From: Klebsiella pneumoniae | GTDB lineage: Bacteria > Desulfobacterota > Binatia > UBA12015 | Assembly (NCBI GenBank): GCA_945872365.1 | Contig: CAMBZJ010000029.1 | Span: 1-37,391, forward strand | Direction: 5' to 3' | Length of the DNA stretch: 37,391 bases | Shown: positions 1 through 9,374 of the stretch, one piece after another | Position numbering within the stretch: position 1 is the stretch's first letter | Layout of the letters: every line of letters starts with the position of its first letter | The notes under the pieces: generated by a model | The model's database searches: none | The model's input: only the letters and a program-made list of their open reading frames with translations | Told to the model about the DNA's origin: nothing | Program-made: the position numbers and the translations under genes

Positions 1-188
1 GGCGCCGACCTTTCGTGCAAGGGGCAGCGGTCGCAACGGCCCGGGGCGGCATCGCCGACCGCGTCCGCCGCGCGCTGCGACGGTATTTCGTACGCCAGGG
101 CTGGCACCGGACCCGCGTCCGATGTACCCGGTCGGGAGATCGACACGAACTGGCTCGTGCGATCCGCATCAACCACCAAGGAGTCGTC

Positions 189-1388
189 ATGCGGAGTCGT
201 AGATCCATCGTCGCTTTGGCAGGCGTCTCGATGCTCGCAGGCGTCGGCTGCATGCATGCGCCCGTCGCCACGCCGCGCGTCGCGGCGCAGGCGCCCGCCG
301 TCGCCGAGGTTCGCCACGTCACGCCGCCGGATCTCTCCGCGGCTCACCTGGGCAAGCACATTCTCTGCGAGCGCCCCATGCGTCACGGTGCGCCCCGCCT
401 GGCCGTCGAGAAGGAAGGCGACAAGGTCGTCGCACACGACTACGGCCACGGCGGCAGCGGCTGGACGCTCGCGCCGGGCAGCGCAGCCTACGTGAACGAC
501 CTACTCGTCTCATCGCCGCTCGCCAAGGACCTGCACAAGGAGACGCCGGTCACGGTCATCGGGGCGGGCGTCATCGGCTTGTTCACCGCCTACGACCTGG
601 TGCAGAGGGGCTACACCGACGTCACCATCGTGGCCGAGCGCTTCGACAACCTCACGTCGCACAACGCGGGCGGACTCCTGGCACCGGTGTCCATGGACAA
701 CGATCCGGCCATGCAGGCCGTGATCGAAAAGATCGGTCTCGACGCCTACCGCTTCTATGCGGAGGTGGCGCGCGGCCAGCACCCGGTCTTCAAGACGGGA
801 GCGATGATCGTCCCCTCCTACTTCGACGACCGTGAGGAGTCCGGCCTCGAGCCCTACGTCGGCAAGGTGATGCAGCCGGCGAAGGACGTCACGCTCGACT
901 TCGGCACGGGAACCACGCGCCGCATGGTCGCCTACGACGACGGGATCTTCATCGACACCGCCGTCATGATGCAGTCGCTCACCGACTGGCTCCGGCCCCG
1001 CGTGACGTTCGTCAAGCGCAAGGTGAAGCGGATCGCCGATCTTCCCGGGCACTACGTTGTCGATTGCGCGGGCATGGGTGCGGGCGCGCTCAACGGCGAC
1101 AAGGCCATGGTGCCGGTGCAGGGTCACCTGATCATGCTGAAGGACCAGGATCCCGAGAAGCTCAAGTATATGATTTTAGTCTACTTCGGCGACGGAAAGA
1201 CCCGGTCGGGCATAAAGGTGAAGCGCTCGTTCTACCAGTTCCCGAAGCACCTGCTGGAGACCGCCGCGAACGACGTCGGCGTCGTGGGTGGCACGTTCAT
1301 CGAGGGAGCGACCTTCGGTACGCCCAACGAGGAAGAGTTCGGCATCCTGCTCGAGAACGGACGAAAGTTCTACGGGCTGAAGGAGTGA
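189..1388 (+). CDS. Secreted FAD-dependent oxidoreductase, D-amino-acid oxidase family, apparently circularly permuted
   Basis: A 399-residue flavoprotein of the D-amino-acid oxidase (DAO) fold. The ATG at 189 has AAGGAG five bases upstream and is followed by a basic, hydrophobic N-terminus (MRSRRSIVALAGVSMLAG), so export is likely; Cys21 could be a lipid site but its lipobox (GVGC) is poor. Residues 122-135 carry the FAD-binding GAGVIG motif, followed by the DAO-like AERFDNLTSHNAGG, VVDCAGMGAGAL (about 290-301) and VPVQGHLIML segments. The family's signature ERxxR...HNYGHGGSG segment, normally C-terminal, lies before the Rossmann motif here (ERPMRHGAPRL at 61-71, HDYGHGGSG at 83-91), and the protein ends soon after the GGTFIEG strand. 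This is the order expected of a circular permutant. The substrate is probably an amine or D-amino acid, not proven. One TTA leucine codon (1176-1178) lies in a locally AT-rich patch. lhr follows after 14 bases. Confidence 0.85.
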   Translation: MRSRRSIVALAGVSMLAGVGCMHAPVATPRVAAQAPAVAEVRHVTPPDLSAAHLGKHILCERPMRHGAPRLAVEKEGDKVVAHDYGHGGSGWTLAPGSAAYVNDLLVSSPLAKDLHKETPVTVIGAGVIGLFTAYDLVQRGYTDVTIVAERFDNLTSHNAGGLLAPVSMDNDPAMQAVIEKIGLDAYRFYAEVARGQHPVFKTGAMIVPSYFDDREESGLEPYVGKVMQPAKDVTLDFGTGTTRRMVAYDDGIFIDTAVMMQSLTDWLRPRVTFVKRKVKRIADLPGHYVVDCAGMGAGALNGDKAMVPVQGHLIMLKDQDPEKLKYMILVYFGDGKTRSGIKVKRSFYQFPKHLLETAANDVGVVGGTFIEGATFGTPNEEEFGILLENGRKFYGLKE

Positions 1389-5917: not shown

Positions 5918-5947
5918 ACGCCCTCTCGGGGCGCGTGCTCGAGAGCC

Positions 5948-5974
5948 GGGGCCGCCGAGTGCAGGCGGGGCCCC
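5948..5974 (+). terminator. Possible hairpin between lhr and selA
   Basis: An imperfect GC-only inverted repeat: 5948-5956 pairs with 5964-5974 around a 7-base loop, with a 2-base bulge. It lies just after the lhr stop and has no U-tract, so it is only a weak terminator candidate. The remainder of the 134-base lhr-selA gap shows no recognisable gene. I looked for a selC-type tRNA there and saw none. Confidence 0.25.
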
Positions 5975-6051
5975 CGGCGAGGTGCGCCGATTCTGCGCAT
6001 GCGCTCGACCGGGGCGGGAGATCGTCGCTGCGGCCTGTTATCCCCCGCCGA

Positions 6052-7428
6052 ATGGAACCGCGCGCGCTGCCCGGCGTCGACGCCGTGCTCTCGAGCGTGG
6101 CGGCCCGACCACTGCTCGATCGCTACCCGCATGCGCTGCTCTCGGGAGCGGTGCGGGGTGCGCTCGACGACGCCCGGCGCGCGATCCTCGACGGTACGCC
6201 TCCGGACGACGTCTCGTGCGAGGCGCTCGTGCGGCGCGCTGCGGGCCGGCTCGATCGGGATCTCACCGGACACCCACCGACGGTCGTCAACGCGACGGGG
6301 ACGGTCCTGCACACGAACCTCGGGCGTGCCTCCCTCGGCCCTGGCGCGATCGCGGCACTGGTGCGGGTCGCCGCTGCTCCGTCGGCCCTCGAGTACGACC
6401 TCGAGACGGGCGGGCGTGGCGAGCGGGACCGCCCAATCGCGGCGCGGCTCCGCGAGCTGACCGGGGCCGAGGACTCGGTCGTCGTGAACAATGCCGCGGC
6501 GGCCCTGCTGCTCGCGGTGGACTCGCTCGCTCGACGCCGGGAGGTCGTGGTCTCGCGCGGGGAGATGATCGAGATCGGTGGTGCGTTTCGTCTACCCGAC
6601 GTCCTCGAGCGGGCGGGTGCGGTCCTGCGCGAGGTCGGCACGACGAATCGGACACGGCTCGAGGACTATGCGGCTGCGATCGGACGGCGCACCGGCTTCG
6701 TGCTGCGGGCGCATCCGAGCAACTACCGGGTCGAGGGGTTCGTCGAACAGCCCGTGCTCGGCGACCTCGCGCGGCTGGCCCACGAGCACGGCGTACCCCT
6801 CGTCGAGGATCTTGGCAGCGGCGCGCTCGTCGACCTCGCGAAGCACGGCCTGCCGCGCGAGCCGATGCCTGCCGATTCGATCCGTGCCGGGGTCGACCTC
6901 GTGACGTTCAGTTGCGACAAACTCCTTGGCGGACCGCAGGCGGGAATCGCGGCAGGACGTGCGGATCTCGTCGATCGGCTGCGGCGCAATCCCCTCAAGC
7001 GCGCGCTGCGCGTCGACAAGCTCGCGATCGCCGCGCTGGCGGCCACCCTCGATGCGCACCGCAGTGCCCGCGACCTCGCGCTCGAGGTGCCGACGCTGGG
7101 CTTCCTGCTGCGCCCGATCGGCGACCTCGAACGCATCGCGCGCGAAGCCTCGGTACTGCTTCGCGCGGCGCTCCCCGCGGGTTTCTCGATCGCGGTCGTG
7201 CCGTCGGAGGCGGAGATCGGGAGCGGCACCCAGCCGGGTGCGCGCCTGCCGAGCCGGGCGCTGCGCGTCGTCCACGAAGACTGGGGCGCGGAGCGCATCG
7301 CCGCGTTCTTCCGCGGCGCACGCCCGTCGATTCTCGGGCGGATCGCCCAGGGGTGCTTCCTGCTCGACCTGAAGGCGGTCGTGCATGCGGCCGACCTGGT
7401 GCCCGCGGCGAGCGGAGCGGAGTCGTGA
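6052..7428 (+). CDS. selA: L-seryl-tRNA(Sec) selenium transferase
   Basis: A 458-residue PLP enzyme that converts Ser-tRNA(Sec) to Sec-tRNA(Sec) with selenophosphate; a cytoplasmic, decameric family of about 460 residues. The SelA N-terminus (LPGVDAVL), the [14 protein letters not shown] segment (80-93), [10 protein letters not shown] and the PLP-lysine segment [13 protein letters not shown] (Lys290) are all present. The ATG at 6052 gives the family-standard N-terminus, although no good Shine-Dalgarno precedes it. Its stop overlaps the selB GTG start in a GTGA overlap, so the two are translationally coupled, as in many Sec-using bacteria. No selD or selC is visible in this window. Confidence 0.95.
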
Positions 7429-9374
7429 ACGACACGACGACGCGGCAGGCCTCCACCGACCGACCGGCGGGGGCGGCCGTGCTCGGCACGGCCGGCCACA
7501 TCGACCACGGCAAGACCGCGCTCGTCCGCCGGTTGACCGGCCAGGACACCGACCGCTTGCCGGAAGAGCGCGAGCGCGGGATCTCGATCGACCTGGGCTT
7601 CGCCCATTACGACCTCGACGGACGACGCTACGGCGTGGTCGACGTGCCGGGCCACGAACGCTTCCTGCGCAACATGCTCGCCGGAGCGCACGGCATCGAC
7701 CTTGTCCTGCTGGTGGTGGCTGCCGACGACGGCATCATGCCGCAGACCGAGGAGCACTTCGACATCGTGCACCTGCTCGGGGTCCGCCGCGCGATCTTCG
7801 TCGTGACGAAAACCGACCTGGTCGACGAGGCTCGGGTGCGATCGGTCCGCGAGGACCTCGCGGTCCTGGCCTGCGGCACACCCTTCGAGACGTCCCCGGT
7901 CGTCGCCGTGTCCAACGTCACCGGGGAGGGCGTCGAGAACCTTCGCGAGGAGATCGACCGCCAGGTCCGGTCGCTGCCGCCGCGCGACTCGCGCGGCCTG
8001 TTCCGCATGCCGATCGACCGAGCCTTCGTGCTGCGCGGGCACGGACTCGTGGTCACCGGGACCGCCATCGCGGGAAGCCTGCGCGAGGGCGACGCGGTCG
8101 CGCTGCGCCCGGGCGACCTCGCCTCCCGGGCGCGCTCGCTGCAGGTGCACGGACAGCGGGTGGCGGAGGTCGTTGCCGGCGAGCGGGTCGCCGTGAACCT
8201 TGCCGGGATCGAGCGGGAGCAGGCCGAGCGGGGCCAGGTCCTGGTGGATGCGCAACTCGACTTCACGACCGACCGTTTCGACTGCTGGTTCGAGGTGCGC
8301 GGGGGAGGGAAGACCGCTTTGCGCAGCTTCGACGAGGTCCGGGTCTACGCCGGCACCGCCGAGGTCGCAGGCCGGGTCGTCGTTCTCGGAGACGCGCGGG
8401 AGATCGCCGGAGGCGAAGGGGGATTCTGCCAGGTCGTGCTCGACGACGAGGTCGTGATCGCGCACGGCGATCGCTTCATCGTCCGCACGGGTAACGCGAC
8501 GCGAACGAGCGGTGGCGGGCTGGTCCTGCACCCATTCGCCCACCGCCACCGGGCGAACGAACCCGGACTGCTCGCGGGACTCGCGGCATTGCGCGACGGC
8601 GATCTCCCAGCCCGCGTGCGCGCATTCCTCGAACTGCTGCACGAGTTCGCCGCACCGACGGACTACGTGGCGCAGGGCCTGAGCCGCACGCCCGAGGAGA
8701 TCCGCACCGCAGCGCTCGCTGCAGCGGGCGTCGTTCCGCTTCCGTCGGCGGCCGAGCCCCAGGCTTGGACCACGCGGGAGAAATGGGGTCGGCTCGCCGG
8801 CCTCGTCGTCGAGGCCCTACAGGCCTTTCACGCCGCGCATCCGCTCGAAGCGGGAATGGAAGCCGAGTCGGTGCGCTCCCGGCTGCGCGTGGCGCTCCCG
8901 CCCCGACTGTTCCGGCCGGTGGTCGATCTCCTCGCGTCCCAGGGACTCGTGATGCGGGAGGATGCGCTGTTGCGCCTGCCGTCGCACCGGCCGCGACTGG
9001 AAGAGGACGACGCGGCGCTCGCCGAGCGACTGCACCGGGCCATCGCCGAGGGCGGTGCCACCCCGCCCGACGTGAAGCAGCTCGAAGCGGCCCTCGGTAT
9101 GCCAGCTCCACGCCTGCTCGCGCTGCTCGCCGTCCTGCTCAAGGAGCGTCGGGTCGTCCGCGTCGCGCCCGACCTCTTTTACGAAACGGCCGCTTTCGAC
9201 CGGATGCGCGCCGCCCTCCTCGACTGGCTGGCCTCCCACCCGGAGATCACGGTCGCCGAGTATCGCAGCCTGGTCTCAGCGAGCCGGAAGTATGCGCTTG
9301 CGCTGCTCGACCACTTCGACCGCGAGGCGCTGACGATCCGCATCGGCGATGCGCGCAAGCTGCGCCGCGGCTGA
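7425..9374 (+). CDS. selB: Selenocysteine-specific elongation factor SelB
   Basis: A 649-residue translational GTPase that delivers Sec-tRNA(Sec) to the ribosome at UGA codons marked by a SECIS element. The G domain is intact: GHIDHGKT (24-31), [10 protein letters not shown] effector region, DVPGH (73-77) and the SelB-type TKTD (128-131) in place of NKxD. EF-Tu-like beta-barrel domains follow, and the C-terminal third has the winged-helix repeats that bind SECIS RNA (for example residues around [19 protein letters not shown] and [22 protein letters not shown]). The GTG start lies in the GTGA overlap with selA; a longer upstream reading in this frame is only the shadow of selA. It ends 17 bases before the convergent parvulin gene. 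Confidence 0.95.

Follow-up and report, generated by a model that had tools for sequence, protein, structure and literature searches.

The first gene of the contig encodes a D-amino-acid oxidase (DAO)-like flavoprotein that is a true circular permutation of DAO. It occupies positions 189..1388 (+) of the window, the whole stretch of 37,391 nucleotides that was analysed, lies 189 bases from the contig end and specifies 399 aa; the assignment is based on the open reading frame (ORF) and on full-length homologues with identical block order. A Shine-Dalgarno-like AAGGAG was read directly 5′ of the ATG (178..183, +). In this ORF a hydrophobic stretch (residues 1-21) is followed by E61RPMRHGAPRL71, H83DYGHGGSG91 and G125AGVIG130, and the positions given in the original prediction, with the first two motifs at 61-91 before GAGVIG at 125-130, were confirmed. 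The FAD-binding GAGVIG (561..578, +), identified by sequence, Pfam DAO and the family profile, usually stands at the very start of the chain in DAO. The blocks downstream of it, AERFDNLT, NAGGLLAP, VVDCAGMGAGAL, VQGHLIML, GGTFIEG (367-373) and the last helix, are in normal order. It had been claimed that the chain ends just after GGTFIEG; the usual end segment is indeed absent from the C-terminus, but the end lies 26 residues beyond 367-373, with the last helix at 381-395 in the predicted model and the chain end matching DAAO residue 272 in structural alignment. We regard the fold and block order as near certain, and the product is very probably an exported FAD enzyme of the DAO family, probably lipid-anchored, with a circularly permuted chain.

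The moved segment, residues 45-115 (321..533, +), was located by profile match and rotation scan; it corresponds to approximately residues 268-340 at the DAAO C-terminus and contains R62 (equivalent to DAAO Arg283) and HDYGHGGSG at 83-91. The junction between the old C-terminal helix and the old N-terminal strand falls at residues 116-120 (534..548, +), according to the rotation scan peak with the cut at 110-120. Pfam DAO (PF01266) was the sole family above cutoff (92.9 bits vs. 27.9; E 3.7e-26), and residues 121-395 of the native protein corresponded to profile positions 2-297. On the genome the profile matched as two pieces in reversed order, positions 249-352 at 165-500 of the window and positions 2-235 at 549-1151. 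The native gene does not have the normal PF01266 block order, and HxYGHGG is found not at the C-terminus, as in DAO, but at residues 83-89, before GxGxxG. When the protein was rotated at residue 115, Pfam DAO matched as a single stretch covering positions 2-352 of 353. The proposal of a permutation and not a loss is thus upheld, since this single stretch appears only after rotation and DAAO 268-334 matches the query N-terminus. All 24 aligned permuted members match PF01266.

To compare the family with human DAAO, a profile was built from 13 relatives. DAAO residues 2-66, 133-216 and 268-334 aligned with profile positions 108-166, 238-321 and 38-101, respectively, with an independent E of 7e-9 for the moved piece and 8.6e-32 for the whole profile; at the level of sequence profiles the moved-segment match is far beyond chance. 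The short motif by itself scores weakly against human DAAO as a single sequence (6.4 bits), as would be expected of a look-alike N-terminal motif arising by chance on a DAO that had lost its C-terminus. This explanation, to which we give a vanishingly small probability, is ruled out by the match of the whole 64-residue segment to DAAO 268-334 (7e-9) and, by single sequence, to 7ct4 320-367 (3.2e-6). In a rotation scan against 42 normal-order bacterial DAO sequences the mean score rose from 106.9 for the native protein to 155.9 at cut 115, the peak covering cuts 110-120 and a shuffled sequence scoring 35 (sd 1.5). Against the permuted profile, canonical DAOs split into two pieces whose order is inverted, while permuted proteins align as one. 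The gain with phmmer was small (best E 2.6e-9 for the rotated single sequence vs. 4.6e-9 for the native one) because phmmer scores local pieces; the informative rotation tests are the Pfam profile and the rotation scan.

The structure predicted by AlphaFold2 with 12 rows (pLDDT 79.6, pTM 0.81) has the overall DAO fold over residues 119-399, and its top Foldseek matches are D-amino-acid and D-aspartate oxidases. VIA-align paired 119-399 with residues 1-272 of human DAAO (2du8; Z 17.6, rmsd 2.9, 247 residues). DAAO 273-340 had no sequential partner in this alignment, and the same part is matched by the N-terminus via the profile; a strand-strand-strand-helix at model residues 60-108 fits the missing part. 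Residues 45-115 would therefore occupy the place of DAAO 273-340, a placement drawn from sequence and complementarity, and the model puts the moved segment inside one compact fold, in line with the original prediction. Profile search found no solved structure of a permuted member; the DAO-family structures are canonical and were matched piecewise. Sequence order alone does not distinguish packing in cis from packing in trans, so that the N-terminal segment could instead complete the site of a neighbouring subunit in a domain-swapped dimer or oligomer. The fragment 36-118 predicted alone gave a pLDDT of 54, too poor for a structure search, and its poor folding could be read in favour of such an exchange, although the same result is accounted for if this part needs the rest of the protein. 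The single-chain model, however, places the segment confidently (pTM 0.81; pLDDT 83-97 for residues 70-110, mean 72 for 60-70), and every permuted member has a short linker from the old C-terminal helix to the old first strand, as packing within one chain would need. We consider segment exchange improbable.

The search for homologues with HxYGHGG before GxGxxG, proposed at the outset, yielded 36 distinct permuted proteins, assigned in their records to Planctomycetota, Verrucomicrobiota, Actinomycetota and Pseudomonadota, alongside 39 normal-order bacterial DAOs. A second HxYGHGG copy at the C-terminus, set beforehand as the observation that would speak against permutation, was looked for in every permuted ORF and was present in none. 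Close relatives with 57-79% identity and the same order came from Phycisphaera/Phycisphaerae, Planctomycetia, Opitutia, Microbacteriaceae and Aestuariivita records, which are mostly MAGs whose taxon labels may be wrong. That the order arose in a single contig, through faulty assembly, a frameshift or a local rearrangement, could be suspected from the position of the window gene, 189 bases from an end, and from the copy in a genome of the same genus, which is cut by a contig end. We attach almost no probability to such an artefact; it is ruled out because 36 distinct proteins share the order and their sources are complete plasmids and many assemblies made independently of each other. The plasmid-borne copies are distant permuted members from Nonomuraea, Rhizobium, Bradyrhizobium, Niveispirillum and Kozakia. 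A Mesorhizobium copy (L017:2914-3977) is split at GAGVMG into two frames annotated as two genes, which reflects a frameshift, a sequencing error or a pseudogene.

The spread of the permuted form is patchy. Only one of 395 genomes in the window's own phylum matched; permuted members, centres included, were found in 15 of 299 genomes around Aestuariivita, 5 of 294 around Phycisphaerae and 4 of 195 around the Opitutia record. The 296 genomes around the Microbacteriaceae record contained no permuted member apart from the centre; the 32 others that matched had normal-order or piecewise matches only. A tree built from the 36 permuted proteins, after rotation, and the 39 canonical ones can be explained by one change of order, on a branch of moderate support (SH-aLRT 70), and one origin is the simplest reading of these sequences. 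The normal order of the superfamily-wide Pfam profile suggests that the permuted order is derived. No match was found among 50,697 phage records that would point to a phage origin. Two IMG/VR contigs (L032, L033) carry a distant permuted DAO without a signal and a resolvase-like frame nearby; they are probably mobile DNA and not virus.

In the reading we favour, the usual end segment of DAO, comprising the carboxylate-binding Arg strand, the HNYGHGG flavin loop and the last helix, stands at the start of the chain. It leads by way of a short linker to the GxGxxG strand, and the chain stops where the segment formerly began. With the old C-terminal helix fused to the old N-terminal strand, the same fold and active site could still form. 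DAO is a textbook flavoenzyme with industrial use and drug-target studies, and its block order has been treated as fixed. As anticipated, we found no description of such a natural, exported DAO permutant in the open journal literature that was searched. A natural permutant common to dozens of bacteria indicates that the DAO fold can accommodate new termini at one specific site, and offers a ready-made engineering scaffold.

Known DAAO and DASPO enzymes (human DAAO 2du8, pig 1kif, Rasamsonia 7ct4, 1c0k, human DASPO 6rkf; PF01266) share with the window protein the fold over 119-399, the GxGxxG FAD site, the HxYGHGG loop and the Arg283 and Tyr228 equivalents. The window protein differs from them in its permuted order, its probable N-terminal export signal, a lid that is longer in its clade and an identity of only about 20-24%. 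Canonical bacterial DAO-like 'FAD-dependent oxidoreductases' (L048-L051, L053, L054 and most of L056-L084), which are common around the Actinomycetota centre, have the same motifs and residues as the permuted proteins, but GxGxxG comes first, HxYGHGG lies about 25-50 residues before the C-terminus and no convincing signal is present. Glycine oxidase ThiO and other PF01266 amine oxidases (MnmC, sarcosine oxidase, L-proline dehydrogenase) have the DAO-type FAD fold in normal order and gave weaker matches; the window protein scored 60.1 bits against the ThiO equivalog (TIGR02352) cutoff of 250.8. DadA-type D-amino-acid dehydrogenases, also of normal order, may have a similar role in amino-acid oxidation feeding respiration, and the score for NF001933 was 31.6 bits against a cutoff of 383.

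The putative signal sequence, residues 1-21 (MRSRRSIVALAGVSMLAGVGC; 189..251, +), is a hydrophobic stretch of Tat-like or Sec type and marks a probable lipoprotein. In the window protein SRRSIV precedes the hydrophobic stretch, and the lipobox is imperfect, with G instead of L/V/I at -3; the same-genus copy (G001, L002) starts MQTSKVGTVLAALSLSLLAGC and has a clean lipobox. Inspection by eye of the 36 permuted N-termini revealed a twin-arginine motif before the hydrophobic stretch in 25, the window protein included, Sec-type signals in five, no signal in five (the Nonomuraea/Rhizobium clade) and one truncation. Signals, Sec or Tat and often with a lipobox, are thus present in about 30 of 36 permuted proteins, while normal-order DAOs lack convincing ones; automated counting under a stringent hydrophobicity threshold gave 19/36 permuted vs. 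2/39 canonical, both of the latter doubtful. The export claimed originally is therefore plausible for the window protein from its hydrophobic N-terminus, SRRSIV and weak lipobox, and is well supported by the relatives: the protein is likely exported and probably lipid-anchored. Since the permuted order probably arose once, the link between signal and order is an association and not independent evidence of cause. It is conceivable, though we hold it only tentatively, that one permutation freed the DAO N-terminus from the buried first Rossmann strand, so that a signal peptide could be added, and gave rise to extracytoplasmic, often lipid-anchored amino-acid dehydrogenases feeding periplasmic electron carriers, with a side branch, likewise permuted, working in the cytoplasm together with a 2-oxoacid decarboxylase.

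In human DAAO, Arg283 and Tyr228 bind the substrate carboxylate (PMC6279847). Sequence alignment identified R62 and Y349 as the equivalents of this DAO-family pair. R62 is present in 36/36 permuted and 39/39 canonical proteins, and Y349 in 9/9 members of the window clade, 17/27 other permuted proteins and 35/39 canonical ones. G125, G127 and G130 of GxGxxG are invariant in the family alignment. Our best reading of the protein is an FAD-dependent amino-acid-type oxidase or dehydrogenase acting outside the cytoplasm. We infer its substrate, electron acceptor and physiological role as follows: the permuted protein would bind FAD and, acting extracytoplasmically on an amino-acid-like carboxylate, would oxidise the C-N (or C-O) bond, with O2 or a respiratory carrier receiving the electrons. 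The permuted proteins point to exported enzymes of amino-acid oxidation that have been overlooked as a group and whose database label is only 'FAD-dependent oxidoreductase'.

The permutation may be real and the enzyme nevertheless act on something other than D-amino acids, namely an L-amino acid, an N-substituted amino acid or a 2-hydroxy acid, or be a non-deaminating redox protein. The window clade sits on a long branch (2.11 changes per column) and has invariant residues of its own. In the family alignment its active-site lid region (residues 328-356; 1170..1256, +) carries a clade-specific insertion of about 16 residues before Y349, and the Tyr228 equivalent is absent from 10 of the 27 other permuted members. 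Against this, R62 is invariant across permuted and canonical proteins and Y349 within the window clade, and neighbours in other permuted clades, RidA-domain proteins and 2-oxoacid decarboxylases, fit amino-acid oxidation. A change of substrate of this kind is rather unlikely in our estimation.

Neighbourhoods of about 30 relatives contained no partner conserved family-wide, and in the window's own clade no conserved neighbour names a substrate. In all four rhizobial/Nonomuraea loci the permuted DAO is followed by a thiamine-diphosphate enzyme whose best match, below cutoff, is indolepyruvate/phenylpyruvate decarboxylase; these decarboxylase-like genes stand directly after the signal-less DAO at L014:4204-5820, L015:4990-6696, L052:5065-6765 and L017:4028-5776 (Nonomuraea and three rhizobia). 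RidA is known elsewhere to hydrolyse imines. In two genomes around the Opitutia record the permuted DAO genes adjoin genes (L122:5401-6675, +; L123:1433-2776, -) whose products begin with a signal-like stretch and contain RidA (Ribonuc_L-PSP) domains, seemingly several in each chain; one of these genomes also has an exported-looking aminotransferase. A cytochrome c gene (L018:4233-4661) directly follows the Kozakia permuted DAO, and its product is a possible electron acceptor. These neighbours, none of them from the window's clade, fit amino-acid oxidation to an imino or keto acid, with electrons possibly passing to cytochrome c. A tRNA search of the window was negative. The downstream neighbour of the window gene reads as an unrelated helicase-like gene, and after it, at 5935-9374, lie frames reading like SelA and SelB of the selenocysteine machinery.
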